DNA of 64,000 nt, from NCBI RefSeq assembly GCF_000308575.1, contig NZ_BAFZ01000165.1, forward strand, positions 62,001 to 126,000, written 5' to 3'. Origin of the DNA: Nocardia exalbida NBRC 100660 (GTDB taxonomy: Bacteria > Actinomycetota > Actinomycetes > Mycobacteriales > Mycobacteriaceae). The notes below the pieces were generated by a model. It saw only the letters and a list, made by a program, of their open reading frames with translations, was not told the origin of the DNA and did no database searches. Position 1 is the stretch's first letter. Each line of letters opens with the position of its first letter. Below, one piece after another: positions 26,872 to 45,098 of the stretch. A program made the position numbers and the translations under genes.

Positions 26872-28188
26872 TCAGATCCGGCCGCCTCGGAGAGACACGC
26901 CGGTGCCGAGCAAGGTGAAGCCGGTGCCGCTCAGCAGGTGCTCGTCGAGCAGGTTGCGGGTGTCCACGACGACGGGCCGGTCGACGACGGTCGCGATTTT
27001 CGCCCAGTCGAGCGAACGGAACTCGGGCCACTCGGTGAGGATTACGAGCGCACCGGCGTCCTTGGCCACCAGATACGGGTCGTCCACCACCCGAACGCCG
27101 TCGAGGCCGGGGGTGCCCGCCGGGACACACGGATCGTAGGCGGTGACGGTGGCGTCGTGCCTCGTGAGCTGCCGTGCGACCGCGAGGGCGGGGGAGTCGC
27201 GCAGGTCTCCCGTCCCGGCTTTGAACGCGAGGCCGAGCACGCCGATTCGCGTCCCCGACAGCGAGCCCTCGACCGTGCCGGTGACCGCGCGGCGGATCTT
27301 GCGCAGCACCATCGCCTGCTGACGGTCGTTGGCGCGCAGAGCGTCACGGATGACGGCGAAGTCCACCCCGGATGCCTCCGCGGCCCGCAGGAGCGCGCGC
27401 GTGTCCTTGGGCAGGCACGATCCGCCCCAACCGGGGCCCGGCGCGAGAAAGGCCGGACCGATCCGGTCGTCCATTCCCATCGCGCCGGTGACCTTCCTGA
27501 TATCGGCGCCGACCCGTTCGCACAGTTCGGCCAAGGTGTTCACGAACGAGAGCTTGACCGCGAGAAAGGCGTTGCTGGCGTACTTGGCCAGTTCCGCGCT
27601 GGCCGGGCCCGATCGCAGTACCGGCGCGCCCGTCGCGGCGTACAGTGCCGCGACGCGGTCGGCCGCCTCCCGGTCCTCGTCGGCCGCACCGACGAGGATG
27701 CGGTCGGGGCGCAGGAAATCCTCGACCGCGTGGCCCTCCCGGAGGAATTCGGGGTTGCTGACAACCGGCGTGCCCGCGAGACCGAACCGGGCGGGGATCC
27801 GTGCGGCCGTCCCCACCGGGACGGTGGACTTGGTGACCAGCACGCAGTCCGGCGACAGGACGGTGGACAACGTCTCGAGCGCCTCCTCGATCACCCCCAG
27901 GTCGGCCGTTCCGCTGGTGCCCGTCGGCGTGGGCAGGCACAGCAGAACCACTTCGCATCGGTGCAACTCGCCGGGGTTCGGCGTGAAGACGAGCCGGTTC
28001 TCCGAAAGCCCTTCCCGAACCAGTTCCGGCAAGCCCGGCTCGGCGATCGAGACGGTGCCCGCGCGAAGTTCCGCGATTTTGGACCGGTCGTTGTCGACAC
28101 AGACCACATGGTGTCCCCAGTGGGCGAGGCAGGCGGCACTGGTGAGCCCCACGTAACCGGCACCCACCACACCGACGCGACTACCCAT
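26872..28188 (-). CDS. ugd: UDP-glucose 6-dehydrogenase (nucleotide-sugar dehydrogenase)
   Basis: The 438-residue enzyme oxidises a nucleotide sugar twice at C6, most likely UDP-glucose to UDP-glucuronate. The N-terminal Rossmann motif is GVVGAGYVGLTSA. The middle domain has SNPEFLREGHAVEDF and ELAKYASNAFLAVKLSFVN. The catalytic cysteine is in GGSCLPKD near residue 260. ATG 28188 overlaps the preceding glycosyltransferase by 8 bp, so it is the last gene of the heptose/xylose glycan operon. It would supply the substrate for the UXS-like enzyme at 36031. GDP-mannose specificity cannot be excluded. Confidence 0.92.
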   Translation of the reverse strand: MGSRVGVVGAGYVGLTSAACLAHWGHHVVCVDNDRSKIAELRAGTVSIAEPGLPELVREGLSENRLVFTPNPGELHRCEVVLLCLPTPTGTSGTADLGVIEEALETLSTVLSPDCVLVTKSTVPVGTAARIPARFGLAGTPVVSNPEFLREGHAVEDFLRPDRILVGAADEDREAADRVAALYAATGAPVLRSGPASAELAKYASNAFLAVKLSFVNTLAELCERVGADIRKVTGAMGMDDRIGPAFLAPGPGWGGSCLPKDTRALLRAAEASGVDFAVIRDALRANDRQQAMVLRKIRRAVTGTVEGSLSGTRIGVLGLAFKAGTGDLRDSPALAVARQLTRHDATVTAYDPCVPAGTPGLDGVRVVDDPYLVAKDAGALVILTEWPEFRSLDWAKIATVVDRPVVVDTRNLLDEHLLSGTGFTLLGTGVSLRGGRI

Positions 28189-29131
28189 GGCGCACCTTCT
28201 CGCCGAGCAGCCCGGCCGCGGCGGCGAGCACATGCTCGGGTCGCAGCATGAGCAGCCCGGGATCCGGATGGCCGGAACGCGGATCGCCCACGGCCCCGGC
28301 CCACAGCGGCACATGGTGTTTCGCGGCGGCGGGCGGTCCCCAGCGGTGCGGCGGCGTGGGGCCGAACAGCAGCACCGACGGGGTGCCGAAGGCGGTGGCG
28401 AGATGCCCTACGCCGGTGTCGCCGCACACGACCAGTGCCGCGCCGGCCACCAGCGCGGCGAGTTGAGCCAGGCCGGTGCGTCCCGCGTACACCGCCGAGG
28501 GCGGTAGTCCGGCTTGTTCGGCGACGGCGTTCGCCAACGGGATCTCGCCGCGCGTACCGGTGATCACCACGCGGTGGCCGTCGGCGCCGAGTTCCCGCGC
28601 CACTCGGGCGAAGCGTTCGGACGGCCAGCGACGTGCGGGATAGGCCGCGCCGGGATGCAGCACGACCACGTTCGACTCGGGGGCGGGCTCCGGTGGCACG
28701 GGCAGCAGCAGGGCGGTGGGATCGGCGTCGATGCGTCCGAATCGCAGCAGCCGGCACCAGCGATCCACCTCGTGCATGTCGTCGTGCCACTCGGGGCCGG
28801 GCAGATCGGGGAAATCCGGATGGTGGTGGGTCAGCATGGTGCCGGGACGTGCCGCCGAGAGGTCCCGGATGCTTTCCGGCCCACTGCCGTGCAAATTCAC
28901 CGCCAGCTTCGGCGGCGCGCCGTGCCATCGGAGCGCACCCAGTCCCGCGGTCGGCAGCAGTTCGTCCACCGCGTCGATGAGACCGACCAGATCGCGGAGC
29001 GCTTCCGGCGCGGCGAGTACCACCCGGTCGTCCGGGTAGGCGTTTCTCAGCCCGCGCAGGGCGGGCACGATGGTGAGGAGGTCACCGAGCCCGAGTGCGC
29101 GGAGCACGAGAATGGGGTGGCTCAGGGCCAC
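28181..29131 (-). CDS. GT9-family glycosyltransferase (heptosyltransferase-like)
   Basis: The 316-residue protein has the two-domain GT-B layout of GT9, the family of ADP-heptose:LPS heptosyltransferases. Its N-terminus is ILVLRALGLGDLLTIVPALR. The donor-binding half has VVVLHPGAAYPARRWP and VVCGDTGVGHLATAFGTPSV, the GDTGxxHLA ADP-heptose-binding signature. GTG 29131 overlaps the SDR stop by 10 bp; a longer frame upstream lies antisense-like within the SDR. Together with HldE and GmhA it strongly suggests transfer of heptose, here to a non-LPS acceptor. Confidence 0.9.
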   Translation of the reverse strand: MALSHPILVLRALGLGDLLTIVPALRGLRNAYPDDRVVLAAPEALRDLVGLIDAVDELLPTAGLGALRWHGAPPKLAVNLHGSGPESIRDLSAARPGTMLTHHHPDFPDLPGPEWHDDMHEVDRWCRLLRFGRIDADPTALLLPVPPEPAPESNVVVLHPGAAYPARRWPSERFARVARELGADGHRVVITGTRGEIPLANAVAEQAGLPPSAVYAGRTGLAQLAALVAGAALVVCGDTGVGHLATAFGTPSVLLFGPTPPHRWGPPAAAKHHVPLWAGAVGDPRSGHPDPGLLMLRPEHVLAAAAGLLGEKVRHG

Positions 29132-29811
29132 GATCCCTCTTCCGAGGCGCACACGACCATCTCCCTGACCTCGCAGCCCGGCGGCTGCCGCAGCGCGAAG
29201 ATCACCGCGTCGGCGACATCCCGGGGCCGGTTGAGTTTCGCGTCGGGCGGCGGCTTGTACTGATCGTCGCGGTCGTCGAAGAACGCGGTGTGCATTCCAC
29301 CCGGGATCAGCAAGGTCACCCCGACGCTGCCGGCTGTTTCGGCGGCGAGCGCCCGGGTGAAGCCGACGACACCGAATTTCGAGGCGCAATAGGCGGTCGC
29401 GTCACCGACGGCCTTGATTCCCAGGGTGGAAGCGCAGGTCACCACCGTGCCCTGGCTCTCACGAAGGGACGGAAGGGCGGCGCGGATGACGGCGGCTGTG
29501 CCGAGCAGGTTGACCTGGACCACGTACTCCCACTTCTTCGTGGGCACCTTGTCCAGGGGACCGCACGCGTCGATTCCCGCGGCGGTGAACACGCCGTCGA
29601 TCCGGCCACCGGCGCGTTCGACGAGTTCGCGCACGGCTTGTTCGGCGGCGAAGGTGTCGGCGAGATCGGCACACACGAAGTCGACGGGCGTCTCCGGCTC
29701 CACCCGGTCGATCACGTAGGGGCGGCCCCCGTTCTCGCGGACAGCGGCGGTGACCGCCGCGCCGAGCCCGGAAGCGCCACCGGTGATCAAGACATTGCCG
29801 AGGGTTCGCAT
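29122..29811 (-). CDS. Short-chain dehydrogenase in glycan operon
   Basis: The 229-residue classical SDR has NVLITGGASGLG at the N-terminus, TAAGID in place of NNAG, and the catalytic YCASK near residue 155. Classical SDRs in sugar clusters reduce or oxidise keto intermediates. It is too short and lacks the extended-SDR features to be the ADP-heptose 6-epimerase HldD. It lies 18 bp after hldE and overlaps the downstream GT9. The substrate may be a modified heptose or a lipid carrier part. Confidence 0.85.
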   Translation of the reverse strand: MRTLGNVLITGGASGLGAAVTAAVRENGGRPYVIDRVEPETPVDFVCADLADTFAAEQAVRELVERAGGRIDGVFTAAGIDACGPLDKVPTKKWEYVVQVNLLGTAAVIRAALPSLRESQGTVVTCASTLGIKAVGDATAYCASKFGVVGFTRALAAETAGSVGVTLLIPGGMHTAFFDDRDDQYKPPPDAKLNRPRDVADAVIFALRQPPGCEVREMVVCASEEGSWP

Positions 29812-29829
29812 CGCGCTCCTTACGTCGTG

Positions 29830-31212
29830 TCAGCCGCGGGCCTGGGTCGCGGCGACCAGTTGTGTTGTCGAGTAACCGCGAACGGTCGGAATCAGCGCGA
29901 TCTCGCCGCCGTAACCGCGGACCACCGCGGCTTCGGGGAGGTCGACGCCGGTGTAGTCGCCGCCCTTGACCCACACATCGGGGCGAAGGCGGTCCAGCAG
30001 TGCGCTCGGTGCGGATTCGTCGAACACGACGACGGCGTCCACCGAGGACAGGGCGATGAGCAGCCGGGCACGATCGCGCGCGGGGACGATCGGGCGGTGC
30101 GGACCTTTCAGACGCCGCACCGACGCATCGGAGTTGAGGCAGACCACCAGCGCATCGCCCATGGCGCGAGCCCGGCGCAGCAGGCTCACATGGCCGGGGT
30201 GCAGCAGGTCGAAACAGCCGCCGGTGGCAACGAGCCTGCCGCCCGCCGCCCGCACTCGCGCCGCCACCTCGAACGCCGACCCGCCCGTTTCGGTGGTGTC
30301 CGACTCCGCGGCAGCGGTGCTGTCGCAGATGGACAACGTGGCAGCGCCGCCCGCCGCGACGAACCCGGCCGCCGCGTCCACGGCGTGCGATACCGCCTCG
30401 GCCACCGTGGACCCGTGGCACAGTGCGGCCGTCGCGGCCGAGGCGAATCGGTCGCCTGCGCCGCAAGTGTCGGTACCGGCGTGCCCGGCGATCCGTATCT
30501 CGGCGGGCACCGGCACCACGGTGAGACGCTTCCCGTTGGCCAGCACCGCCCCGCCCGAACCGGTGGTGACCGCGACCGAATCCGCGGCCCACTCGTCACG
30601 GAGTACTTTCGCCAATTCGTCGGCTTCGACATAGCCCGGTGCGAACTGGCGCGCCTCCTTCAGATTCGGCGTAACCAGAGAGGCACCCGGCGTCGGGGCG
30701 GGGCCGCGGGGGTGCGGATCCCACACCACCGGTACCGACCGGGCCAGTTCGGTCAGCGTGTGCCGGATCTGCGGATGCGCGGCGACACCTCGGCCGTAGT
30801 CGGCGACGAGGATCGCGCCGGCCGCCCGCAGGGTCGTGGCGACCGAAGCGGTGAGCTGGCCGCCATCCGCCGTCCCGTCACCGGTGTCCAGCCGAAGCAG
30901 GGACTGACCGGCGGCGCGGATGCGGGTCTTGCGTACCGTCTCGCCCCGCAGCGGCATCGTGACGACTCGAACGTCCCGGCCCAGCAGCCGCGCGAGGGTG
31001 TGGCCGTCCCGGTCGTCGGTGGTCGCGGTGATGAGGGAGACCTCCGCGACCGACTGTGCGGCCAGCGCCGCGGCCAGACCGGCGCCGCCGGGACGTACCC
31101 ACCGGCGTTCGACGTCCACCACGGGCACCGGCGCTTCGGGGGACAACCGGTCGGCGACGCCCTCGATGTCGACGTCGAGAATACTGTCGCCGACCACGAC
31201 CAACGGCTTCAC
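29830..31212 (-). CDS. hldE: Bifunctional heptose-7-phosphate kinase/heptose-1-phosphate adenylyltransferase
   Basis: The 460-residue protein fuses a PfkB-type kinase (residues ~1-300) to a nucleotidyltransferase (~320-460). The kinase part shows VVVGDSILDVDIEGVADRLS and GTDTCGAGDRFASA; the transferase part has TGGCFDLLHPGHVSLLRRA (HxGH) and WVKGGDYTG. It makes D,D-heptose 1,7-bisphosphate from the 7-phosphate, then ADP-heptose from the 1-phosphate. Length and order match Gram-negative HldE. GTG 31212 overlaps gmhA by 4 bp. In an LPS-free actinomycete the ADP-heptose must serve another glycan. Confidence 0.93.
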   Translation of the reverse strand: MKPLVVVGDSILDVDIEGVADRLSPEAPVPVVDVERRWVRPGGAGLAAALAAQSVAEVSLITATTDDRDGHTLARLLGRDVRVVTMPLRGETVRKTRIRAAGQSLLRLDTGDGTADGGQLTASVATTLRAAGAILVADYGRGVAAHPQIRHTLTELARSVPVVWDPHPRGPAPTPGASLVTPNLKEARQFAPGYVEADELAKVLRDEWAADSVAVTTGSGGAVLANGKRLTVVPVPAEIRIAGHAGTDTCGAGDRFASAATAALCHGSTVAEAVSHAVDAAAGFVAAGGAATLSICDSTAAAESDTTETGGSAFEVAARVRAAGGRLVATGGCFDLLHPGHVSLLRRARAMGDALVVCLNSDASVRRLKGPHRPIVPARDRARLLIALSSVDAVVVFDESAPSALLDRLRPDVWVKGGDYTGVDLPEAAVVRGYGGEIALIPTVRGYSTTQLVAATQARG

Positions 31213-31772
31213 GTCGGTACCCCCAGCGCGTCGTCGAGTGCCGAGCACAGGGCATGCACCAAGACCAGATGCACTTCCTGCACGGTGGCGGTGGTGGCCG
31301 CCTCCACGGCCACGGCGTCATCGCACAGTGCCGCGAGCGGATTGGGCGCGGGGCCGGTCATGGCCCACGTGGTGACGCCGATGTCGTGTGCCGCCTTCGC
31401 CGCGGCCACCACGTTGGGGCTGGTGCCACTCGTGGACAGCAGGATGAGCACGTCGTCGGGCCTGCCGTGCGCGCGAACCTGCCGCGCGAACAGTTCGATT
31501 CCGCCGTAGTCGTTCACGATCGCGGTGCCCGCCGAAGTGTCGGCGTGCAGGGCGATCGCCGAGAACGGGCGCCGCTCGTTGCGGAAGCGGCCGACCAGTT
31601 CCCCGGTCAGGTGCTGGGCTTCGGCCGCGCTGCCACCGTTGCCGCACGCGAGCAACCTGCCACCGTTGTCGAGCACGGTCGCCAGTTCCCGTCCCCACCT
31701 GCGGATATTCGGTGCGAAGCGACTGGTGCGCTCCAGTGCCGCGGCCAAAGCCGCGAAATGCTCCTCGATCAC
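31209..31772 (-). CDS. gmhA: Sedoheptulose-7-phosphate isomerase
   Basis: The 187-residue SIS-domain protein converts sedoheptulose 7-phosphate to D-glycero-D-manno-heptose 7-phosphate, the first step to ADP-heptose. LLACGNGGSAAEAQHLTGEL carries the phosphate-binding loop, and LLSTSGTSPNVVAA is the second SIS motif. VQEVHLVLVHALC contains the active-site glutamate and histidine of GmhA. ATG 31772 overlaps the upstream GT9 by 4 bp and its stop overlaps hldE by 4 bp. Confidence 0.93.
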   Translation of the reverse strand: MIEEHFAALAAALERTSRFAPNIRRWGRELATVLDNGGRLLACGNGGSAAEAQHLTGELVGRFRNERRPFSAIALHADTSAGTAIVNDYGGIELFARQVRAHGRPDDVLILLSTSGTSPNVVAAAKAAHDIGVTTWAMTGPAPNPLAALCDDAVAVEAATTATVQEVHLVLVHALCSALDDALGVPT

Positions 31773-32812
31773 CGCGCACCTCCTGTCCGCAGACGCTCAC
31801 GCCTGCCCGCACCGAGTTCTTCCGCCACCGTGACGACCTGCTCCGGGGTGATCGAATCGAGGCACGGGTGCCCTGGCACCGGGCACTCGCGCGCCCTGCT
31901 GCCGCGGCAAGGGGCGCGTTGGTCACCGAGCATGACCACCGGCACGCCGTAGGGAGCCCACCGCTCGGCGGGCACGACCGGTGCGAAGAGCGAGACCACG
32001 GGCGTCCCGACGGCCGCGGCGAGGTGCGCGGGCCCGGTATTGGGCGCCACCACCACGCTCGCGTCGCGGAGCACGGCGGCGAGCTCGGGCAGCGTGGTGG
32101 CTCCGCCGAGGTCGATGGCGTGCCTACCGGCGACCGTGTGGGTGAGCGGTCGGTCGGATCGGTCGCCGGTCACGATCACCCGGTGTCCGGCGCCGGTCAG
32201 CGCGGCGACGATGGCCGCGGAACGGGAGGACGACGGCTGCCGCGCCGGGACCGACGCGGCCGGGTGGACCACCACGTAGCCGGGTTCGCCGGTGAGACCA
32301 CCGACCTTCGGCAGCGGTTGCCGAACGGCGAGTTTCCCGTCGTCGCCGGGCGGCAGCCGGAAACCCGCCGCCTGCGCGAGCGACAGCGCGCGTTCCGCTT
32401 CGGGCGGATCGCCGTGGACGCGATGACGCAGGTCCAGCAGCGAACCGGGGTAGTCCTCGGAGATGGCGCCGATACAGGGGACTCCGGCCATCCTGAGCAG
32501 GAGCGCCAGCGGCAGCGGCGACTGGTGGAAAGAGGTGAGAATCAACGCCAGATCGACCTCGAGAGCGCGTATCCGCTCGATGAAGGCGGTGGTGTCCGCC
32601 GAGGTGACCGGGGGTGGCTCCGGGTCGATCCAGGGAGCGCACCAGTTCGAGACCTGGTGCACACCGGGCAAGAGGTCACCGGCGGCGCGGCCGCGAGGTC
32701 CGGTCAGCAGTGTCACCGAATCGACGTGCGCGGCCACCGCGCGCACGCACGGACCGGCCAGCAGCACATCGCCGAAGTTGTCCATGCGTGCTACCAGCGC
32801 CCGGCCTGTCAT
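31769..32812 (-). CDS. GT9-family glycosyltransferase (heptosyltransferase-like)
   Basis: This 347-residue GT9 protein begins ALVARMDNFGDVLLAGPCVR and carries VVVHPAASVPARQPSSSR and VVAPNTGPAHLAAAVGTPVV, the donor-binding motif. It differs clearly from the second GT9 of the operon, so two distinct heptose linkages or acceptors are likely. A cysteine-containing C-terminal part (CRGSRARECPVPGHPCLD) recalls heptosyltransferases with C-rich tails. ATG 32812 and its stop both overlap neighbours by 4 bp. Confidence 0.9.
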   Translation of the reverse strand: MTGRALVARMDNFGDVLLAGPCVRAVAAHVDSVTLLTGPRGRAAGDLLPGVHQVSNWCAPWIDPEPPPVTSADTTAFIERIRALEVDLALILTSFHQSPLPLALLLRMAGVPCIGAISEDYPGSLLDLRHRVHGDPPEAERALSLAQAAGFRLPPGDDGKLAVRQPLPKVGGLTGEPGYVVVHPAASVPARQPSSSRSAAIVAALTGAGHRVIVTGDRSDRPLTHTVAGRHAIDLGGATTLPELAAVLRDASVVVAPNTGPAHLAAAVGTPVVSLFAPVVPAERWAPYGVPVVMLGDQRAPCRGSRARECPVPGHPCLDSITPEQVVTVAEELGAGRRERLRTGGAR

Positions 32813-34308
32813 CGCACGCCCGCCATCGCCAGCCGTACGGCTTCGGCCAGGTCTTGCGCCACGGTCGCGTCGCGACGCGCGCGACGCACCTCTTCGGGGC
32901 GAGTTCTCGCGGTGGGCACCAGGATCGCGCGTGCGCCCGCGCTCATCGCGGCGGTGACGTCCGCGCCGGTGTCGCCGATGACCACGCATCTGCCGACGTC
33001 GACGCCGAGGTCCGCGGCGGCCTGCCGAATCAAGCCGGGCTCGGGTTTGCGGCATTCGCAGCCGTCGCCCTCACCGTGCACGCACACCTGCCAGGTCGCG
33101 AACGGTCCGAGCAACTCCTCGACCCGGGAGTTGACCGCGGCGAGCTGTTCGGGACTGATCAGCCCTCGCGCGACACCGGACTGGTTGCTCACGACACCGA
33201 GCTGGACGCCGGCCGCGCGCAGCTTCCGCAGTGCGTCGACCGCCCCCGGCACCGGTTGCACTCGGCCGGGATCGGCGAGGTAGGGGATATCGATGATGAG
33301 GGTGTCGTCCCGGTCGAACAACAACGCCAAGGGCGAGGTGTGGGTCGCGTTCCGGTGGCGCAGCTCACCGCGCAGTCGGTGCCAGCACGCGGCCGGTGGT
33401 ATGAGCGCGCTGGTCACCGTCATCCGGCCGATCTCCGCCGGTGTGCGGGGCCCCGGCGCGATCCGGCGCGCGGCGAACGCGCCGGTCAGCGCCGTCCACG
33501 CCGCAGCGAGCAGGATGGCGGACCGGTGCCGGCCCGCGACGCCGAGCGCCATGGCCGCCGCGCCCGCGGCCGTGGTGAGCGCGTGGCGGGGCAGCAGTCC
33601 CTGGTCTTCGCCGATGCGCCGGCGCCACCGAGCGCCGTACTTGCGCCGCAGCAAGGCGTTGTCGGCGTTTCCACGTTGCGCTCGCACACTCGCCATGGGT
33701 CCCGATTCGCGGACCGGGTGGCGCGTGAGCCGGTTTCCGGACGCGATGGCGAACCCCGCGAGGAAAACCCGAAGCGCGAGGTCGGCGTCCTCGCGAAAGG
33801 CCCTCGGGAACCGCTCGTCGAAGCCGCCGACCGTGACCAGCGCGGACCTGCGGTAGGCCATGTCCGCGGTGATCCACCGCGCCGTGGCCAGCCGTGCCGT
33901 CGCGCGTTCCGCGTCGGTCGGTCGCCGGTGCTTCGGCAGCGGAACCTCGATGCGGGCCGTGGACGCCGCGGTGTGCTGGTCCAGATCGCGCAGGTCGTCG
34001 GCCAGGCGGGCGGGCCAGTCCGGCGCGGTGATCACGTCGTCGTCGAGGAAGGCGATCCACGTGCCCGCCGCGTGCCGCCACCCCGCGTTCCGCGCCGCGG
34101 CGGGTCCGCGGCCACCCGACCGGATGACCCGCGCCGGAGGCGCTGTCTCGGGCAGCGTCAGCTCCCCGCCCCGTGGCCGATCGTCCACCACGATGATTTC
34201 CCGTGGCTTCGGACCCGACGCTGCGGCGAGCGACTCGAGCAGCAGCCGAAGGCTTTCCCGGCCGGTAGTCGGGATCACGATGCTGTAGTCCACGGTGTGC
34301 GCGTTCAT
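32809..34308 (-). CDS. Fusion: GT2 glycosyltransferase + GmhB heptose-bisphosphate phosphatase
   Basis: The 499-residue protein joins two enzymes. Residues ~1-300 are a GT-A family 2 transferase: YSIVIPTTGRESLRLLLESL, DDRPRGGE, FLDDDVITAPDWP and a FREDADLALR acceptor-side motif. Residues ~330-490 are an HAD phosphatase of the GmhB type: LLFDRDDTLI (DxD), VVSNQSGVARG, a zinc loop CVHGEGDGCECRKPEPGL and VVIGDTGADV. GmhB removes the 7-phosphate from heptose 1,7-bisphosphate between the two HldE reactions. Fusion to a glycosyltransferase is unusual and implies both act on the same product. It overlaps both neighbours by 4 bp. Confidence 0.9.
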   Translation of the reverse strand: MNAHTVDYSIVIPTTGRESLRLLLESLAAASGPKPREIIVVDDRPRGGELTLPETAPPARVIRSGGRGPAAARNAGWRHAAGTWIAFLDDDVITAPDWPARLADDLRDLDQHTAASTARIEVPLPKHRRPTDAERATARLATARWITADMAYRRSALVTVGGFDERFPRAFREDADLALRVFLAGFAIASGNRLTRHPVRESGPMASVRAQRGNADNALLRRKYGARWRRRIGEDQGLLPRHALTTAAGAAAMALGVAGRHRSAILLAAAWTALTGAFAARRIAPGPRTPAEIGRMTVTSALIPPAACWHRLRGELRHRNATHTSPLALLFDRDDTLIIDIPYLADPGRVQPVPGAVDALRKLRAAGVQLGVVSNQSGVARGLISPEQLAAVNSRVEELLGPFATWQVCVHGEGDGCECRKPEPGLIRQAAADLGVDVGRCVVIGDTGADVTAAMSAGARAILVPTARTRPEEVRRARRDATVAQDLAEAVRLAMAGVR

Positions 34309-35927
34309 GAGCGACGGACCACGAACGAGCCGAGGGCGAGCAGATCGATCGGGGCGGATCCGAAGCACTCGAGGGCGTCGCGGGGCGAGTCGACCATCGG
34401 CCTGCCCGCGGTGTTCAAGCTCGTGTTGATCACCACGGGCAACCCCGTGCGCTTGTCGAACTCCGACAGCATCCGCGCCAGGACCGGGTTGTCCGCGGGA
34501 TCGACGGTTTGCACCCGGGCGGTGCCGTCCACATGCGTCACGGCCGGGATCCGCTCCCGCCAAGCCGGATCCACGTCGTGGACGAAAAGCATGTAGGGGC
34601 TGGGCAACGGTCCGCGTCCGAAGATCTCGGACGCTCGATCGGTGAGCACCATCGGTGCGAGCGGCCGGAACTGTTCGCGCCCCTTCACCTCGTTGAGGCG
34701 TTCGAGATTCGCCGACCGGCCGGGATGCGCCAGCAGCGAGCGGTGCCCGAGGGCGCGCGGGCCGAATTCAGCCCGGCCCTGGAACCAGGCCACCACCTGG
34801 TCGTCCGCGAGCGCTTGCGCCACTTCGGCCGCGATGTCCTCGGATCTGGTGTATTTGACCTTTGCGGTACGGAGAACGGTCTCCAGTTGCTGGTCGGTCC
34901 ACTCGCGGCCGAGAGCGGCCCCCCGCATCGGGGTGGCACGCTCACCGAATTCGGCCGCCAATTGCAGTGCGGCGCCCAGCGCGGTGCCCGCGTCACCGGC
35001 TGCCGGCTGCACCCAGATCCGTTGGTAGGGGCCTTCGGCGTGCAGCCGGCTGTTGGCCACGCAGTTCAGCGCGACGCCACCGGCCAGCGTGAGGTTCTGC
35101 TGTCCGGTCTGGCGATGCAGCCAGGAGCTCAGTTCCAGCAACACGTCCTCTAATCGCCGCTGGACACTCGCGGCGAGGTCGGCATGGTCCCGGCCGAGCG
35201 CACCGCCGGTCACGGCGGGAGCGAATTCCTCCCAGTCCACCTGTTCGGTGTGGAAACCGCCGTCCCGGACGGAATACAGCAGTTCGCGGAATCGGTCGAG
35301 GAAGCGGGGCGTGCCGTAGGAGGCGAGAGCCATCACCTTGTATTCGTCGCTCGACCGGGTGAATCCGAGGTGCTCGGTGAGGTCCTCGTACATCAGCCCG
35401 AGTGAGTGCGGCAACCGCTGTGACGCCAATTCGACGAATTTGCCGTCCCGGTATTCTCCGGCGAGATAGGAATGGCTTTCGCCGCGCCCGTCGGCCACCA
35501 GGACCGCTGAGTCGCCGAAAGGGGCCGCGAGAGCCGCGGACGCGGCATGGGCCAGATGATGTCGCACGAAGCGCACGATCGAGGGATCCAGGCCGGGTAA
35601 GGCGGCGGCGAGGAATGCGGGCGCACGGAACGCGTAGTCCGTCCGGGTCGGTTCGCTGTTCTGATCGAGACCGCCGAGCGAATGATCGACCAGATTCGGG
35701 TCATAGGAATAGCCCACCGCGTCGAGCTGCTCGGGACGTAATCCCGCGCGCTCCAGGCACCACGTGGCCGCTTGCTCGGGCACCTCCCACGCCGAGAACG
35801 GCACCGGCCGCTTGCCGTGTTTGCGCCGGGTGAACCGCTCCTCCTCGGCCGCCGCGACGATTTCTCCGTCGACGATCAGGGCGGCAGCAGGGTCGTGGAA
35901 CACCGCGTTGATTCCGAGAATGCGCAC
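34305..35927 (-). CDS. Carbamoyltransferase, NodU/CmcH/TobZ family
   Basis: The 540-residue enzyme has an N-terminal Kae1-like domain (ILGINAVFHDPAAALIVDG, AAAEEERFTRRKHGK, FVRHHLAHAASAA) and a C-terminal YrdC-like region with GRAEFGPRALGHRSLLAHP. Such proteins transfer carbamoyl phosphate, via carbamoyl-AMP, to sugar or cephem hydroxyls. I start at GTG 35927, after AAAGGCGG; upstream ATG codons at 35978 and 36008 add low-complexity residues. The stop overlaps the GT2-GmhB start. It predicts O-carbamoylation of the heptose or xylose in this glycan. Confidence 0.92.
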   Translation of the reverse strand: MRILGINAVFHDPAAALIVDGEIVAAAEEERFTRRKHGKRPVPFSAWEVPEQAATWCLERAGLRPEQLDAVGYSYDPNLVDHSLGGLDQNSEPTRTDYAFRAPAFLAAALPGLDPSIVRFVRHHLAHAASAALAAPFGDSAVLVADGRGESHSYLAGEYRDGKFVELASQRLPHSLGLMYEDLTEHLGFTRSSDEYKVMALASYGTPRFLDRFRELLYSVRDGGFHTEQVDWEEFAPAVTGGALGRDHADLAASVQRRLEDVLLELSSWLHRQTGQQNLTLAGGVALNCVANSRLHAEGPYQRIWVQPAAGDAGTALGAALQLAAEFGERATPMRGAALGREWTDQQLETVLRTAKVKYTRSEDIAAEVAQALADDQVVAWFQGRAEFGPRALGHRSLLAHPGRSANLERLNEVKGREQFRPLAPMVLTDRASEIFGRGPLPSPYMLFVHDVDPAWRERIPAVTHVDGTARVQTVDPADNPVLARMLSEFDKRTGLPVVINTSLNTAGRPMVDSPRDALECFGSAPIDLLALGSFVVRRS

Positions 35928-36030
35928 GGGCCGCCTTTCTGTTGGAGACGCGGGACCTGTCGGTCTGCCCGCTGACATATGGGTGGCGCTACCCGCTGAA
36001 GTCACCACTAAACCGATTCATGCACGACGG

Positions 36031-37005
36031 CTATCGTCGCAGCAACTTCTCAGCAGACTCGCTCTCGCGCCCCGCGAACCAGTCGATCGTGCGGCGCAGT
36101 CCCTCCGCTCTGCCGACCGACGGCTCCCAGCCCAGTGCCCGGCGGGCCAGCGTGATGTCCGGGCAGCGCCGCTTCGGATCATCGATCGCGCCCTCGACAT
36201 AGGTCAGCACCGATCGGCTGCCGGTTACCGAGCGGATCTCGTCGGCGAGGCGGCGCACGGAGATCTCGTGCGGATTGCCGATGTTGACCGGTCCCGGGTG
36301 GTCGGTGGCCGCCAGCGCCAGCAGGCCGCGCACCGTGTCGTCGATGTAGCACAGGGAGCGGGTCTGCTCGCCGGTTCCGGCGATGGTGAGCGGTGCGTCC
36401 GACAACGCCTGTGCGATGAATGTGGGCACCATCCGGCCGTCGTCGGCACGCATGCGGGGACCATAGGTGTTGAAGATTCGGGCGATTCCGGTATCGAGGC
36501 CCCGTTCCCGGCGGTGTGCCATGGTCAACGCTTCGGCATACCGTTTCGCCTCGTCGTAGACGCTGCGCGGACCGACCGGATTGACGTGTCCCCAGTATTG
36601 CTCGGGCTGCGGGTGCACAGTCGGGTCGCCGTAGACCTCGCTCGTCGACGCGAGGACGAATCGCGCGTCGTTCCGCTCGGCCAGGTCGAGGGCGTTGGCA
36701 GTGCCGAGTGATCCGGCGCGCAGTGTCTCGATCGGCAGCCGAAGGTAGTCCGGAGGCGACGCGGCCGACGCGAGGTGGAAGACGACGTCGAAAAAGCCCA
36801 GCGCCGGCCACCGCTCGGTGACGTCGTGCTGGATGAGGTCGAACTCGGGACGGTCCAGCAGCCGGGCGACATCGTCCACCGTGGAGGTGGCGAAGTTGTC
36901 CAGCGCGACCACGGCCGTGCCCGCGTCCAGCAGCTGTTCGCACAGGTGCGATCCGACGAATCCGCAACCGCCGGTGACCAAGGCGCGTTCGTATTGTCCG
37001 GACAT
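36031..37005 (-). CDS. UDP-glucuronate decarboxylase-like extended SDR (UDP-xylose synthase type)
   Basis: The 324-residue extended SDR has ALVTGGCGFVGSHLCEQLLD, then FVLASTSEVYGDPTVHPQPE, YWGHVNPVGPRSVYDEAKR and ARIFNTYGPRMRADDGRMVP. The GPRSxYDEAKR and NTYGPRM segments are characteristic of UDP-glucuronate decarboxylase (UXS), which makes UDP-xylose via a 4-keto intermediate. Catalytic YxxxK is intact. It is 9 bp downstream of a GT4 gene. With Ugd at the operon end it completes a route from UDP-glucose to UDP-xylose. A related dehydratase/epimerase activity is possible. Confidence 0.87.
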   Translation of the reverse strand: MSGQYERALVTGGCGFVGSHLCEQLLDAGTAVVALDNFATSTVDDVARLLDRPEFDLIQHDVTERWPALGFFDVVFHLASAASPPDYLRLPIETLRAGSLGTANALDLAERNDARFVLASTSEVYGDPTVHPQPEQYWGHVNPVGPRSVYDEAKRYAEALTMAHRRERGLDTGIARIFNTYGPRMRADDGRMVPTFIAQALSDAPLTIAGTGEQTRSLCYIDDTVRGLLALAATDHPGPVNIGNPHEISVRRLADEIRSVTGSRSVLTYVEGAIDDPKRRCPDITLARRALGWEPSVGRAEGLRRTIDWFAGRESESAEKLLRR

Positions 37006-37013
37006 GGTGTCGC

Positions 37014-38324
37014 CTACCCGTGGCCGTTCGCGGGAATGCTGTGATCAATCGAGGATCCCCCGGTGGCAAGCTCGTCGCTGTCCCCGGCGTGGCCGACCGC
37101 GCGGCCGTCGGTGGGCCCGCTTTCGTTCTGCGCCCGTACGGTCGCGGCGGCCACCCGCCGGTACGCGTGCAGGGTCTCGGTGGCGATCCGATCCCACGAG
37201 TAGCGCGCTTCGACGCGTTCGCGCCCGGCGCGACCGTAGTTCTGCCTGATCGCAGGCGTGGCGAGAAGTTCACCGACCGCGTCGGCCAGCTTCGCCGGTT
37301 CCCGGGGTGGGATCAGCCTGCCGGTCACCCCGTCGACGACGGTGTCGATGAGACCTCCGACCGCGGTCGCGACCACGGGAACCCCGCAAGCCATCGCTTC
37401 CAGCGGTGTGATGCCGAAGGGTTCGTACCACGGCGTGCACACGACCACGTCCGCCGACCTCAGTAGCGGGGCCATCCGAGTCCGCGGCACCTGGCCCAGC
37501 AGATGGAGCCGGTCGCGCACACCGAGTTCCGCCGCCAGCGCGAGCAGCCGCCTGCCTTCGGGGTCATCGGCCACGTCGCCGTCGTCCGGGCCGCCCACCA
37601 AGATCAACTCGGTGTCGGGCAAACTGGTGAGTGCGGTGATCGCGGTGTCGAAACCTTTGCGCGGCACCAATCTGCCCACACTGACCATCCGGTGCCCGGC
37701 CGGCCGCGGTGCGCTCGGTCCGTCGGGCGTGAACTGGACGAGATCTACGCCGCACGGAATCACCGACGTCCGCGACCGTGGCACACCCATCCTGGCCAAT
37801 TCGAAGATCTCGTCGGTGCAGGTGGCGATGATGCGGTCGGTCTGCGCGGCGATCAATCGTTCGAGGCGCACCCGGTCGGCCGGGCTGGTGTCGTTCGCCC
37901 CCTGATGGCGGCGTTTCACCACCCCCAGCGCGTGGAAGGTCTGCACCACCGGCAGGGTGGCGGGGCGAGCGGCTCGCAGGGCGGCCAGGCCGGACATCCA
38001 GAAATGCGCGTGCACCACGTCTGGGCGCTGATGCCGCCAGTGCGCGCGCAGAAACGCGCCGAAATCGCCCATGTGCGGTAGCAATTCGTCCTTCGGCAGG
38101 GGATGGGCGGGCCCGGCCGGTACGCGGATCACGCGATAGCCCTGTTCGGTGGTCACAGTGTGCGGCGCCTGCGTCTCCTCCCGGCGCGTGTAGACGGTGA
38201 CCTCGTGCCCCTGTCGGCACAGGGCCGCGGACAGTTCCGCCACATGAACGTTCTGCCCGCCGGCATCGACCCCGCCCAGCGCGGCGAGTGGGCTGGCGTG
38301 CTCGGACACCATCGCGATCTTCAT
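37014..38324 (-). CDS. GT4-family glycosyltransferase
   Basis: The 436-residue GT-B enzyme starts KIAMVSEHASPLAALGGVDA and GGQNVHVAELSAALCRQGHE, the glycine-rich acceptor loop of retaining GT4 transferases. It carries SVGRLVPRKGFD and EPFGITPLEAMACGVPVVAT, the EX7E donor motif. The last ~40 residues are acidic and low-complexity. The donor is not predictable but could be UDP-xylose or UDP-glucuronate made by this operon. ATG 38324 is 31 bp below the first gene's stop. Confidence 0.9.
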   Translation of the reverse strand: MKIAMVSEHASPLAALGGVDAGGQNVHVAELSAALCRQGHEVTVYTRREETQAPHTVTTEQGYRVIRVPAGPAHPLPKDELLPHMGDFGAFLRAHWRHQRPDVVHAHFWMSGLAALRAARPATLPVVQTFHALGVVKRRHQGANDTSPADRVRLERLIAAQTDRIIATCTDEIFELARMGVPRSRTSVIPCGVDLVQFTPDGPSAPRPAGHRMVSVGRLVPRKGFDTAITALTSLPDTELILVGGPDDGDVADDPEGRRLLALAAELGVRDRLHLLGQVPRTRMAPLLRSADVVVCTPWYEPFGITPLEAMACGVPVVATAVGGLIDTVVDGVTGRLIPPREPAKLADAVGELLATPAIRQNYGRAGRERVEARYSWDRIATETLHAYRRVAAATVRAQNESGPTDGRAVGHAGDSDELATGGSSIDHSIPANGHG

Positions 38325-38355
38325 GATTCCGCCTTCTGTCTCCGGGACACTGCCT

Positions 38356-39333
38356 TCATCGGGTGACCTCGGCGAGGAGGGAATCCCACCGGCGCAGGAA
38401 GACCTCGAGGCCGTAATGTTCCAGCGCGAACTGCCGTCCCGACTTGCCCGCGAGCGCCGCCAGATCGGGTTCGTGGAGGAATTCGTGGAACTTCGCGGTG
38501 AGCGCCGCGACGTCGGAAGAGAGGGCACCGGCTTCCGGGGGCACCGCGCGGACGGCCTCGGTGGTGGCGAGGGCGACCACCGGCATGGCCAGGTGCATGG
38601 CCTCCAGGAGTGACAATCCGAGGGAGGTCCACCGCGCGGTGTGCAGATACACCCTCCTGCGCGCCATTTCCGGATGCAGCACCGACTGCCGCAGATCACC
38701 GATGCCGCGGATCGGGTGGACGGTGGGCCGGTCGGCGGTGAAGGCGTCGGCTCCGATCCCGTACACATCGACCGGTCCCGCCATCGCGAAGTCCGGCAGC
38801 AGATCGCTTCCGGTGATCCTTCCGCGCCGCATCGGTTCGTTGATCAGGGCCACGCCGTGCGGCAGTTCGCCGGTGTACAGCGCGCCGGGGTCAACGATGC
38901 CGTGCGGCACAACCCGGGTGGGCGCGTGTCCGCTGTCCCACATCAGGTTGTTGAAATGCGTGACGTGCACGATCGGGATGTCGGTGCGATCCGCCAGCGG
39001 ATGCCTGCTGGTAGCCGCGCTGGGACGCGGCGTGTTGTGCTCGACGTAGACCGCCGGAATGTCGGCGCCGGGACGGCGCCCGAGCCATCGCTCGGTGAGG
39101 TCGATTTCCTCTGGGCGCTGGAGAACGACCACGTCCGGCTCGGTGTCGCGCAACGCCGTCGCGGGCACCTCCTCGGCGAAGGGCCAGTCGCGGCCGCACC
39201 GTCCGCGCCCCCACGGGCCACCGCCGTCCACCACCGGCATCAGGTATCGGTGCGGCCCTCGGACGAACGATGTCGTCCATGAGCCGTGCACGTGCCACAG
39301 CAGCACGGTCAGCCGTTCGGTGATTGCGGCCAT
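38356..39333 (-). CDS. GT4-like glycosyltransferase, first gene of the glycan operon
   Basis: The 325-residue protein opens LTVLLWHVHGSWTTSFVRGP and later has VYVEHNTPRP, VVPHGIVDP and TSLGLSLLEAMHLAMPVVAL, the C-terminal EX7E-type donor site. It resembles short GT4 enzymes found with heptose genes, in which the donor Rossmann half is compact. ATG 39333 opens the eleven-gene operon. A divergent aldehyde dehydrogenase begins about 210 bp upstream, so the operon promoter must lie within 39334-39545; I could not pick out a clear -10. Confidence 0.85.
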   Translation of the reverse strand: MAAITERLTVLLWHVHGSWTTSFVRGPHRYLMPVVDGGGPWGRGRCGRDWPFAEEVPATALRDTEPDVVVLQRPEEIDLTERWLGRRPGADIPAVYVEHNTPRPSAATSRHPLADRTDIPIVHVTHFNNLMWDSGHAPTRVVPHGIVDPGALYTGELPHGVALINEPMRRGRITGSDLLPDFAMAGPVDVYGIGADAFTADRPTVHPIRGIGDLRQSVLHPEMARRRVYLHTARWTSLGLSLLEAMHLAMPVVALATTEAVRAVPPEAGALSSDVAALTAKFHEFLHEPDLAALAGKSGRQFALEHYGLEVFLRRWDSLLAEVTR

Positions 39334-39545
39334 GCCGGTAGCTCTTGCCTATAACTCCCGCGACCAAACCTGGTTTCCGCACCTGTTAGCAATCTGTCAG
39401 CTATCGACGTGCGGGTGCCGCCGCTTCCCGGCCGCTGACGCGGACGGCGGTGCCGACGAGTTTGAACAGCGGGTGCCAGGCAATGGCTCGCGGTATGAGC
39501 GCAGCGAACGCTGTCACGTTTCCCACCGAGAATCGGGCGACCGCG

Positions 39546-40886
39546 ATGATCGAGATACTCGATCCCGCCACCGGTGCCACCGTCGGCCATGTGCCTATGA
39601 CCGGCCTCGCGGAGATCGATCGGCAGGTCGAGCTGGCCGATCGGGTCCAGCCGGCGTGGGCGCGCACCGCGCCGGCGGAGCGGGCCGCCGCACTGCGTGC
39701 CGGTGCCGCCTTGCTGCGCGAGTGTGCCCACGAGCTGGCCGAACTCAACCGTGTCGAAACAGGACGCCCGTTGTCCGAAGGCGAACAAGGTGTGCTGACC
39801 GGTGCCGCGACGTTGGAACAGTATGCCGAGCTGGGGCCACTGCACCGGGGGAAGACCCTGCAAGGAGACTTCGAGGCGACCGACCTCATGGTGTGGGAGC
39901 CGTGCGGCGTCGTCGTCGCGCTGACGCCGTGGAACGACCCGGTCGCGGTGTCCTGCGGCTTGCTCGGCGCGGCGCTGGCCACGGGGAACACGGTCGTCTA
40001 CAAGCCGAGCGAACGCGCACCGCATACCGGCGGTCTGCTCGGCGAATTGCTCGCCCGTGCGCTTCCCGAGGGGGTGCTGCAGACGGTTCAAGGTGATGGG
40101 AGGGTCGGCGCGCTGCTCGCCGCGCGCACCGATGTGGACGTCGTCGCGCACGTCGGCAGCACGTCCACGGGGCGGTCGATCGCGAAGAGTGTGGCGGCTA
40201 CCGGCGCCAAGGCATTGCTGGAGAACGGCGGCAACGACGCGCTCGTCGTCGACGCCGGGGTGGATCCTGTCTGGGCCGCCGGGCAGGCGGCGCTCGGCGC
40301 GTTCGCGAACTCCGGCCAGATCTGCGTGTCCGTCGAAAGGATCTTCGTGCACCGGGATGTCGCGCAGGCGTTTCTGGCGGCGCTGGTCGCCGAAGCCGAG
40401 TCCTGGAAGACGGCGCCGTTGGTCGACCGGCGTCATCGCGATCAGGTCCACGCCCACGTGCGCGACGCGGTGGACCTCGGGGCCGATCTGCTGACCGGCG
40501 GAGCGGTGCCCGACGGCGCCGGTGCGCACTATCCGGCAACCGTGCTGGCACACTGCGATTCGAACATGCGCATCATGCGGGAGGAGACCTTCGGTCCGGT
40601 CGCGCCGGTGCGGCGGGTGGACACGTTCGAGCAGGGCATCGCGGAGGCCGCCACCGACGACTACGGGCTCGCGGCGACCGTACTCACTGCATCGATGGCC
40701 CATGCCCAGCACGCCTGGCGAGAATTGCCGGTCGGCACGGTGAAGATCAACGCTGTGTTCGGTGGGGCGCCCGGCGGAGCGGCGCATCCCCGGCGGGCCA
40801 GCGGATCCGGCTTCGGTTATGGACCCGAATTGCTGGACGAGATGACGCAGACGAAGGTCGTGCACCTGCGCCCGGCGCCCCACTAG
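39546..40886 (+). CDS. Aldehyde dehydrogenase (NAD(P)-dependent)
   Basis: The 446-residue enzyme has the ALDH fold: WEPCGVVVALTPWNDPVAVS (oxyanion Asn), YKPSERAPHTGG, AKALLENGGNDALVV (general-base Glu) and FANSGQICVSVERIFV (nucleophilic Cys). The substrate is undefined. I start at ATG 39546 (MIEILDPATG), where the domain begins. In-frame ATG codons at 39450 and 39495 are possible, and none has a good Shine-Dalgarno. It is divergent from the glycan operon and may belong to it functionally or merely share the promoter region. Confidence 0.88.
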   Translation: MIEILDPATGATVGHVPMTGLAEIDRQVELADRVQPAWARTAPAERAAALRAGAALLRECAHELAELNRVETGRPLSEGEQGVLTGAATLEQYAELGPLHRGKTLQGDFEATDLMVWEPCGVVVALTPWNDPVAVSCGLLGAALATGNTVVYKPSERAPHTGGLLGELLARALPEGVLQTVQGDGRVGALLAARTDVDVVAHVGSTSTGRSIAKSVAATGAKALLENGGNDALVVDAGVDPVWAAGQAALGAFANSGQICVSVERIFVHRDVAQAFLAALVAEAESWKTAPLVDRRHRDQVHAHVRDAVDLGADLLTGGAVPDGAGAHYPATVLAHCDSNMRIMREETFGPVAPVRRVDTFEQGIAEAATDDYGLAATVLTASMAHAQHAWRELPVGTVKINAVFGGAPGGAAHPRRASGSGFGYGPELLDEMTQTKVVHLRPAPH

Positions 40887-41278
40887 AAGATGTTCTACGG
40901 TGCGGTCACCGAGCGGAGGGACCACTCGCGCGGCGGATTGACCTGCGGTGCAGCGGGTACGCGCGGACACATGCGGGTACTTGCCTCGACGCGCTGGTCA
41001 CCACGCGCTCGCACGGTTCGGCGCCGGGACTGTGAGCGGGTGTCCCGGTCTCGGCAGTCGACCCCACCGCGGGCGGAGGGAAGGTCACCACGCAGGCGAG
41101 GGCATCCGACCGGCCCGCGCTGGTCTGCGCCGAGCGATCCGCCGCCGCAGGCGCGTCCGACCAGCGGTGGCACCGGTGTCCGGCGCAGCCGGCAAGCGAA
41201 CGCGCGCGTCGACGGGGGTTCCCGGCGGTCGACGCCTTGACCAGGGACCTGCTCGACGCTGCTCGCGGGGCCGTCGGC
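40887..41278. other. Gap between the aldehyde dehydrogenase and GT2 genes
   Basis: About 390 bp without a recognisable gene. All frames are arginine/proline-rich translations. A TTG-started extension of the downstream GT2 from 41237 would use part of it. No strong hairpin follows the dehydrogenase stop. Confidence 0.4.
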
Positions 41279-42163
41279 GTGAGCGCGTTGCCCGTGGCGA
41301 AGACCACCGTCGTCATCGCCACGCGTAACCGCGCGTCCGAATTGGCCCGCACCTTGACCGAGTTGCGCGCACTGCGCCCCTGTCCGGCGATCGTGGTGCT
41401 GGACAACGCTTCCGACGACAACACCGCGGACGAGGCGAAGGCGTTCGCGGGGGTGAAAGTCATACGACTGTCCCGCAATCTCGGTGCGGCGGCGCGCAAT
41501 CTCGGCGTAGCGATCGCCCGCACGCCGTACGTCGCCTTCAGTGACGACGACTCGTGGTGGGCCGATGACGCGCTCTGCGAAGCCGAGCGGGTGCTGGACG
41601 CCTATCCACGGCTCGGCCTGGTGGCCGGACGCACGCTCATCGGCGACGATCACCGTGACGACCCCGTCAACGACCTGATGGCGGCCAGCCCGCTCGGGCA
41701 TCCCCTCGGGCTGCCGGGGCCACGGGTCCTCGGGTTCCTGGCCTGTGCGGCGATCGTCCGGAAGGAGGCGTACCTGCAGGCCGCCGGGTTCAGCGCGCTT
41801 CTGCATTTCGGCGCCGAAGAACGGTTGCTGTCACTCGATATGGCGGCGTGCGGCTGGGATCTCTGTTATGTCGCGCGAGTGCGCGCCCACCATCACCCGT
41901 CGGCGCGGCGCCCACCGCACGCGTGGCGCGAATCGGCCGAACTGCGCAACAACGCGTTGATCGTCTGGATGCGGCGGCCGCTACGGCGCTGCGCGGCCGA
42001 ATCGGTCGGCCTGCTGGGCCGAGCGGTGCGTGACCCGGGGATGCTGCGCGCGGTCGCCGGGATCTTTCGCCGCCTGCCGCGAGCGTTGGCGCAGCGCCGC
42101 CGGCTGCCGCCTGAGGTAGAGCGCCGGGCCAGGGCGCTGGAACTCGCCCACGGAAGGAAGTGA
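41279..42163 (+). CDS. GT2-family glycosyltransferase (tandem copy 1)
   Basis: The 294-residue GT-A protein has TTVVIATRNRASELARTLTE, VVLDNASDDNT, LGAAARNLGVAIARTPYVAF and SDDDSWWADDAL with the DDD metal motif. A GAEERLLSLDMAACGW acceptor region follows. The C-terminus is basic (RRLPPEVERRARALE) and may touch the membrane. GTG 41279 starts just before the fold; TTG 41237 is an alternative. It is followed after 4 bp by a close paralogue, so the pair arose by tandem duplication and probably adds successive sugars. Confidence 0.87.
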   Translation: MSALPVAKTTVVIATRNRASELARTLTELRALRPCPAIVVLDNASDDNTADEAKAFAGVKVIRLSRNLGAAARNLGVAIARTPYVAFSDDDSWWADDALCEAERVLDAYPRLGLVAGRTLIGDDHRDDPVNDLMAASPLGHPLGLPGPRVLGFLACAAIVRKEAYLQAAGFSALLHFGAEERLLSLDMAACGWDLCYVARVRAHHHPSARRPPHAWRESAELRNNALIVWMRRPLRRCAAESVGLLGRAVRDPGMLRAVAGIFRRLPRALAQRRRLPPEVERRARALELAHGRK

Positions 42164-42167
42164 CCGC

Positions 42168-45063: not shown

Positions 45064-45091
45064 TGACATAAATGAACTTGTCGGTTAAATT
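45064..45091 (+). promoter_or_regulatory. Promoter of the SDR-PPOX fusion gene
   Basis: TGACAT (45064-45069) and TAAATT (45086-45091) are a good -35/-10 pair with a 16-bp spacer. ATG 45099 follows the -10 by seven bases, indicating a leaderless mRNA and ruling out the in-frame ATG 45072, which lies inside the promoter. Confidence 0.65.
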
Positions 45092-45098
45092 TCAGTCC

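Follow-up and report, generated by a model that had tools for sequence, protein, structure and literature searches.

The analysed window, a stretch of 64,000 nucleotides (nt) from contig NZ_BAFZ01000165.1 of Nocardia exalbida NBRC 100660 (positions 62,001 to 126,000 of the forward strand; source assembly of 7.37 Mb in 164 contigs), contains a gene cluster for a putative carbamoylated heptose/xylose glycan. Reading of its open reading frames (ORFs) revealed a main unit on the minus strand, running from 39333 to 26872 and composed of eleven open, codirectional genes (G1-G11), whose start codons were chosen by us. In the order of transcription they encode (i) a GT4-like glycosyltransferase, (ii) a GT4 glycosyltransferase of the MshA/sucrose-phosphate-synthase type, (iii) a UDP-glucuronate decarboxylase (UXS), (iv) a carbamoyltransferase, (v) a GT2-GmhB fusion, (vi) a GT9 protein, (vii) GmhA, (viii) HldE, (ix) a short-chain dehydrogenase (SDR), (x) a second GT9 protein and (xi) UDP-glucose 6-dehydrogenase (Ugd). 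Six of the ten junctions are overlaps (4, 4, 4, 4, 10 and 8 nt), and the remaining four are spaced by 25, 8, 22 and 18 nt, which agrees with an original prediction, made from the sequence alone, of eleven codirectional genes with mostly 4-10-bp overlaps. The system extends beyond this unit: a divergent set, encoding an aldehyde dehydrogenase (ALDH) and two GT2 proteins, is located at 39450-43064 on the plus strand. The features are listed in Table 1, together with their occurrence in 97 related loci, i.e. those of 114 (chosen by HldE similarity or by the cwg promoter described below) that cover at least 19 kb; some contigs are represented twice (e.g. L038/L062, L039/L061, L043/L069).

Table 1. 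Predicted genes and other features of the cluster (coordinates of the window; bits, profile or PDB match scores; %, identity)
Feature	Coordinates	Strand	Evidence
G1, GT4-like glycosyltransferase (cwgF-like)	38356..39333	-	PF13692 27.1 bits (cut-off 27); 55% to sixth gene of cwg-type locus L170
G2, GT4, MshA/sucrose-phosphate-synthase type (cwgG-like)	37014..38330	-	PF00534 130.8 bits; TIGR03449 (MshA) 240.8 bits, below cut-off of 462.5; best PDB sequence match 6kih (Tll1590), 249.5 bits
G3, UDP-glucuronate decarboxylase, UXS (cwgA-like)	36031..37005	-	PDB 4gll/2b69 (UDP-glucuronate decarboxylase 1), 327 bits
G4, O-carbamoyltransferase, NodU/TobZ/GdmN family (cwgB-like)	34305..36008	-	PF16861 (Carbam_trans_C) 223.6 bits (cut-off 27); PF02543 186 bits; PDB 7xb6, TobZ, GdmN
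G5, GT2 fused to GmhB-type HAD phosphatase (cwgC+cwgD-like)	32809..34308	-	PF00535 67 bits, residues 9-115; PRK08942 116.1 bits, residues 328-492, below cut-off of 178
G6, GT9, heptosyltransferase-like (cwgE-like)	31769..32812	-	PF01075 76.5 bits (cut-off 22); 62% to L170 gene
G7, GmhA, sedoheptulose-7-phosphate isomerase (cwgH-like)	31209..31772	-	PRK13936 175 bits and TIGR00441 154.8 bits, both below cut-off; PDB phosphoheptose isomerases
G8, HldE, bifunctional heptose-7-phosphate kinase/heptose-1-phosphate adenylyltransferase (cwgI-like)	29830..31212	-	TIGR02199 183 bits (cut-off 181.5); TIGR02198 136.7 bits (cut-off 345); GAGD and GCFDLLHPGH motifs
G9, SDR, outside the 12 cwg genes	29122..29811	-	PF00106 117 bits; 81/97 related loci
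G10, second GT9, heptosyltransferase-like (cwgJ-like)	28181..29131	-	PF01075 97 bits (cut-off 22); PDB GT9 and heptosyltransferase II, 67 and 62 bits
G11, UDP-glucose 6-dehydrogenase (Ugd)	26872..28188	-	PF03721, PF00984, PF03720; 50/97 related loci
Degenerate copy of GTTTGAAC element before G1, spacer 12	39345..39369	-	Matching copies in other Nocardia loci
Promoter- or operator-like element GTTTGAAC-N11-GGCAA before ALDH	39460..39483	+	Exact copy
U1, ALDH	39450..40886	+	PF00171 377.6 bits; 26/97 related loci
Decayed polysaccharide pyruvyltransferase-family remnant	40985..41257	+	53% to residues 197-287 of the 295-aa protein that L038-L040 encode in full
U3, GT2 (cwgK-like)	41237..42163	+	PF00535 81.7 bits; 51% to L170; 56/97 related loci
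U4, GT2 (cwgL-like)	42168..43064	+	PF00535 62.8 bits; 58% to L170; 36/97 related loci

The profile and PDB matches, the conserved motifs and the overlapping junctions indicate that G1-G11 are real genes, whose functions are mostly those originally assigned. Profile searches support the HldE, GmhA and GT9 calls, on which the original prediction had staked itself, and the carbamoyltransferase and the UDP-glucuronate-to-xylose route were borne out by the Carbam_trans_C score of G4, the Pfam domains of Ugd and the PDB match of G3. The best PDB match of G3 to an enzyme of another kind (UDP-glucose 4-epimerase) scored 130 bits, versus 327 bits for UXS, so its closest relationship is to the UDP-glucuronate decarboxylases. 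G4 belongs to the same two-domain family as the TobZ, GdmN and novobiocin carbamoyltransferases. Tll1590, the best PDB match of G2, is presumably a sucrose-phosphate synthase. Inspection of HldE, GmhA, the GmhB domain, UXS and Ugd identified the characteristic motifs of each.

All of the domains of an ADP-heptose pathway (isomerase, kinase, phosphatase and adenylyltransferase) are encoded, according to profile, PDB and motif matches, which supports the predicted D-glycero-D-manno-heptose route to ADP-heptose. By homology, GmhA, the HldE kinase, the GmhB domain and the HldE adenylyltransferase would together convert sedoheptulose-7-phosphate into ADP-D-glycero-beta-D-manno-heptose. Of the NCBIfam equivalog models, TIGR02199 passed its cut-off, whereas the matches to TIGR02198 (136.7 vs 345), TIGR00441 (154.8 vs 209.45) and PRK08942 (116.1 vs 178) were significant yet below theirs. 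The HldE adenylyltransferase model has a single match in the assembly. HldD, already reported as missing, was represented there by no protein above the TIGR02197 cut-off (13 weaker matches, the best with 105.6 bits vs 274.6), and without it the heptose should retain the D,D configuration.

The nucleotide-sugar steps and the GT9 family are shared with the inner-core heptose pathway of lipopolysaccharide (LPS; GmhA, HldE, GmhB, HldD, WaaC/WaaF). The window differs in that HldD is absent above the cut-off, the GT9 scores are far below the cut-offs of the LPS heptosyltransferases, and no lipid A context was seen; nothing observed points to LPS, in keeping with the LPS-free setting assumed at the outset. 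There is a precedent for heptose genes in mycolic actinomycetes, which had been presented as a puzzle: as stated in passages of PMC12298843, deletion of gmhD leaves Rhodococcus ruber without a capsule. Compared by description, both systems would supply activated heptose to a surface glycan of a mycolic actinomycete, although the activation is GDP-dependent in R. ruber, judging by the name of the gene, and ADP-dependent in the cluster described here.

The view of the cluster as an isolated oddity is not supported: the same gene set constitutes the cwg ("cell wall glycan") operon of Streptomyces and is scattered through actinomycetes. This operon entered the literature with Hong et al. 2002 (as cited by later papers). 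In S. coelicolor it comprises SCO6179-6190; excerpts of PMC5839063 (2018) describe cwgI as the gene of a bifunctional synthase/transferase and cwgH as that of a putative phosphoheptose isomerase, and excerpts of PMC5882110 describe cwgE as that of a putative heptosyl transferase. The excerpted papers describe it as vancomycin-induced and partly sigma-E dependent; its product, including the name, is presented in them as a prediction. A literature search, which left most subscription literature outside its reach, led to papers on cwg regulation or expression and found no structure of the cwg product. Among the papers listed for heptose in actinobacteria, none was recognised as dealing with this gene set, and the Actinoplanes polysaccharide paper PMC13390465 contained none of six terms sought in it.

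The published cwg promoter was found, with up to three mismatches, in 9 of 392 genomes assigned by inference to Streptomyces, and once exactly, in the region L170, which we infer from this match to be S. coelicolor or a near relative. The genes downstream encode, in order, UXS, carbamoyltransferase, GT2, GmhB, GT9, GT4, GT4, GmhA, HldE, GT9, GT2 and GT2, which fits the excerpted annotation of cwgH, cwgI and cwgE, and the divergent neighbour is a polysaccharide deacetylase gene, like SCO6178. All 12 of these genes, including those for GmhA, HldE, GmhB, two GT9 proteins, UXS and the carbamoyltransferase, have homologues (50-68% identity) within 26872-43064 of the window, two of them (cwgK- and cwgL-like) in the divergent unit, outside the interval 26872-39333 originally described. 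Of the five regions selected by promoter, L170 and L171 contain the full set and L172 (one mismatch) only two homologues, while no homologue was found in L173 or L174 (three mismatches). The promoter sequence by itself is therefore no marker of a cwg cluster. Among eight other regions of presumed Streptomyces origin, L155 holds just GmhA and HldE.

The one-unit, 12-gene layout of S. coelicolor was not found in the window, where ten of the families are encoded in the main unit and two in the divergent one. The GT4 pair is shifted to the front, and the GT2 and GmhB domains, encoded by two genes in L170, form one gene in the window and one aligned stretch in several relatives. Further differences are the added SDR, Ugd and ALDH genes, a decayed pyruvyltransferase-family neighbour and a different upstream element. 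With the GT4 pair moved and the genes split over two units, the cluster is a relative of the cwg operon and not a copy of its layout. Most of the original puzzle is thus already known, and the cluster is largely explained by a known operon type.

Homologues of the ALDH-GT2-GT2 set occur within or next to related clusters, and in each of the 11 other Nocardia loci examined (9 distinct contigs) ALDH and G1 are divergently oriented. The site between ALDH and U3 is covered by three Nocardia loci (L038-L040), all with an intact gene for a 295-aa protein, of which the window retains a remnant; a Pfam scan of the L038 protein alone detected PF04230 over residues 184-222 (38.7 bits vs 25.3). Relatives aligning over at least 263 residues are present in 34 related loci, duplicates counted. 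An ORF at the same site (U2, 40890-41240) was dropped as a gene: it has no Pfam match, none of the 97 loci contains a homologue, and it overlaps the remnant.

A search of the whole assembly for GTTTGAAC-N9-13-GGCAA gave one exact match, the copy before ALDH. The motif GTTTGA(A/T)(C/T)-N11-GG(C/T)AA is located shortly upstream of both divergent start codons in every one of the 11 other Nocardia loci (9 distinct contigs), and this common element links the ALDH-GT2-GT2 genes with the main unit. As a guess, GTTT-N15-GGCAA may faintly resemble a sigma-B/F promoter. A GGAAAC stretch before G1 was considered as a sigma-E-like promoter and rejected, as it is not conserved across other Nocardia.

The closest named loci are those of Nocardia, with an HldE 88% identical to that of N. 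abscessus. Counting partial and more distant copies, HldE relatives were found in 166 of 298 genomes of the order (E<=1e-30), 89 of 394 of the class (E<=1e-60) and 33 of 148 Nocardia genomes (E<=1e-100). HldE of the cluster type (at least 76% identity) is present in 25 of the 148, while the other eight of the 33 reach only 49-59%; its occurrence in a minority of Nocardia indicates an accessory trait. The ADP-heptose route is accordingly encoded in part of the Nocardia and Mycobacterium genomes and was not found in others (the assignment of those lacking it to Mycobacterium being by inference).

Within the 97 loci we counted homologues of GmhA (95), GT9b (91), GT4b (88), GT2/GmhB (88), GT9a (88), carbamoyltransferase (85), GT4a (84), SDR (81), UXS (80), U3 (56), Ugd (50), U4 (36) and ALDH (26); because the loci are cut at fixed distances, the counts of the outer genes are too low. 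For eight genes, the pairwise distances are correlated (r 0.69-0.91) across the 51 loci that hold all eight, compared with a maximum of 0.11 in 500 permutations run for a single pair (HldE vs carbamoyltransferase). Since shared genome descent alone raises such correlations, they demonstrate joint inheritance, not function.

Further relatives of the cluster genes were observed elsewhere. Six Nocardia genomes (G1051, G1118, G1084, G1023, G1156 and G1103) contain an HldE relative (51%) with an identical bit score of 370.4, which suggests a recently spread, near-identical second copy, and a second relative is located downstream of the cluster in the Arthrobacter-type loci L037, L135 and L137. The source genome has a kinase-only HldE relative of the PfkB family (approximately 50%; G000:C86:4986-5924, L167:4938-5972), next to an ORF that appears sigma factor-like by eye, as well as homologues of GT9b (55%) and GT4b (59%) at L168:10205-11125, L168:15911-17317 and L169:13401-14348.

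It is probable, as judged from these comparisons, that the Nocardia cwg-type cluster directs the synthesis of a carbamoylated heptose/xylose glycan, more likely a defined oligosaccharide than a Wzy-type polymer. By homology, Ugd and then UXS would convert UDP-glucose into UDP-glucuronate and UDP-xylose. Two GT9 (presumably transferring heptose), two GT4 and three GT2 enzymes would assemble the glycan, to be O-carbamoylated by the NodU/TobZ-type enzyme, and the divergent ALDH and GT2 genes would form part of the same system. An oligosaccharide of roughly five to seven sugars, attached to a lipid, a protein or a small molecule, may be finished in the cytoplasm, and general export machinery would then deliver it for use in the cell envelope.

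The preference for an oligosaccharide is based on the lack of clear membrane helices in the glycosyltransferases and of an exporter or polymerase family shared inside the cluster. In a hydrophobicity scan the operon proteins and ALDH have one or two hydrophobic stretches at most (G1, G2, G6, G10 and ALDH), and a like scan of positions 15374-64000 of the window detected no ORF with at least three. Multi-transmembrane (multi-TM) ORFs occur within the cluster span in 3 of the 97 loci and represent three families (EamA, FtsX and MFS). No multi-TM family is common to the spans of the 97 loci, which argues against a self-contained Wzy/ABC polymer system and for a cytoplasmic oligosaccharide; export by genes located elsewhere is compatible with this.

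Several observations weigh against this interpretation. The hydrophobicity scan is a crude one, and it recorded two hydrophobic stretches each (up to 1.92) for G6 and G10. In a further 14 of the 97 loci, a multi-TM ORF flanks the span at a distance of up to 1.5 kb; 8 of the 17 multi-TM ORFs in spans and flanks were scanned against Pfam, and examples from the flanks are a phosphate transporter, an Nramp protein and, in N. abscessus (L058), an MFS protein. A plasmid-borne cluster of S. fungicidicus, outside the 97, has an MFS gene adjoining HldE, and such flanking MFS genes imply that an exporter may sit nearby in some clusters. The HldE kinase, GmhA and GmhB scores are under the equivalog cut-offs. 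The published sigma-E-type cwg promoter (type [ACG]AAC-N16-18-[CG]GT[CT]) was absent in a scan of 39334-39800, upstream of G1, and with another element conserved instead, the cluster is not assigned as a sigma-E target. The literature search found no product, mutant or expression data for the Nocardia cluster, and the "cell wall glycan" label of cwg is itself a prediction in the excerpted papers.

An alternative that we regard as possible, though we do not favour it, is a capsule, exopolysaccharide or wall-polymer cluster, whose repeat would be built on a lipid carrier, with the flippase, polymerase and ligase encoded elsewhere. The name cwg and the sigma-E regulation reported for S. coelicolor, like the capsule-less gmhD mutant of R. 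ruber (PMC12298843), all known from excerpts, fit such a product, as do the pyruvyltransferase-family relatives in the 34 loci, duplicates counted (with a Pfam test on one), and the MFS genes flanking some clusters. Against it, the spans share no multi-TM family, and a scan of 20 window proteins detected no initiating transferase.

The oligosaccharide interpretation may be taken further, to the rather doubtful proposal that the cwg product is no wall polymer at all and would be a carbamoylated, often pyruvylated D,D-heptose/xylose oligosaccharide, made wholly in the cytoplasm from a soluble starting acceptor, as suggested by the resemblance of the cluster GT4 to MshA and sucrose-phosphate synthase. 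If true, actinomycetes would have a stress glycoconjugate of a new class, and ALPK1 could sense some Nocardia and Mycobacterium through its ADP-heptose precursor.

It is unlikely that the cluster forms the glycosylation part of a secreted small molecule, comparable to carbamoylated antibiotics. Bleomycin sugar genes are of a similar type, G4 is related to the TobZ, GdmN and novobiocin enzymes, and the distribution is patchy. Septacidin is also named as an NDP-heptose product in passages of a commentary (PMC11461863). However, no polyketide synthase or nonribosomal peptide synthetase was detected among the 20 window proteins scanned, and the core gene set is the same across many genera. Protein heptosyltransferases are related to GT9. 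Protein heptosylation by the GT9 enzymes is nonetheless a very improbable function, since the five further glycosyltransferase domains exceed the need of simple heptosylation, even though protein heptosyltransferases exist, with aah mentioned in the excerpted commentary (PMC11461863).

The cluster is ordinary in kind, and its significance is that the gene-set comparison yields a core gene set and a specific prediction of the chemistry (D,D-heptose, xylose, carbamoyl and sometimes pyruvate), which makes the product of cwg testable. Contributed by this analysis are the joint inheritance, the rarity of multi-TM ORFs in the span, the extra SDR, Ugd and ALDH genes, the decayed pyruvyltransferase-family gene and the Nocardia motif at the divergent starts. 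Useful additions are the expected biochemistry (ADP-D,D-heptose, UDP-xylose and carbamoyl) and the finding that the clusters have no exporter in common within their spans. The suggested relevance of ADP-heptose as an ALPK1 ligand is plausible but general, because heptose-nucleotide enzymes have already been reported across kingdoms (excerpts of PMC11461863).

Downstream of the divergent unit, the plus strand encodes a SLATT_2 domain protein (SMODS and SLOG-associating 2TM effector domain) at 44387-44986 and, at 45072-46343, a short-chain dehydrogenase domain joined to a PNPOx-like domain.

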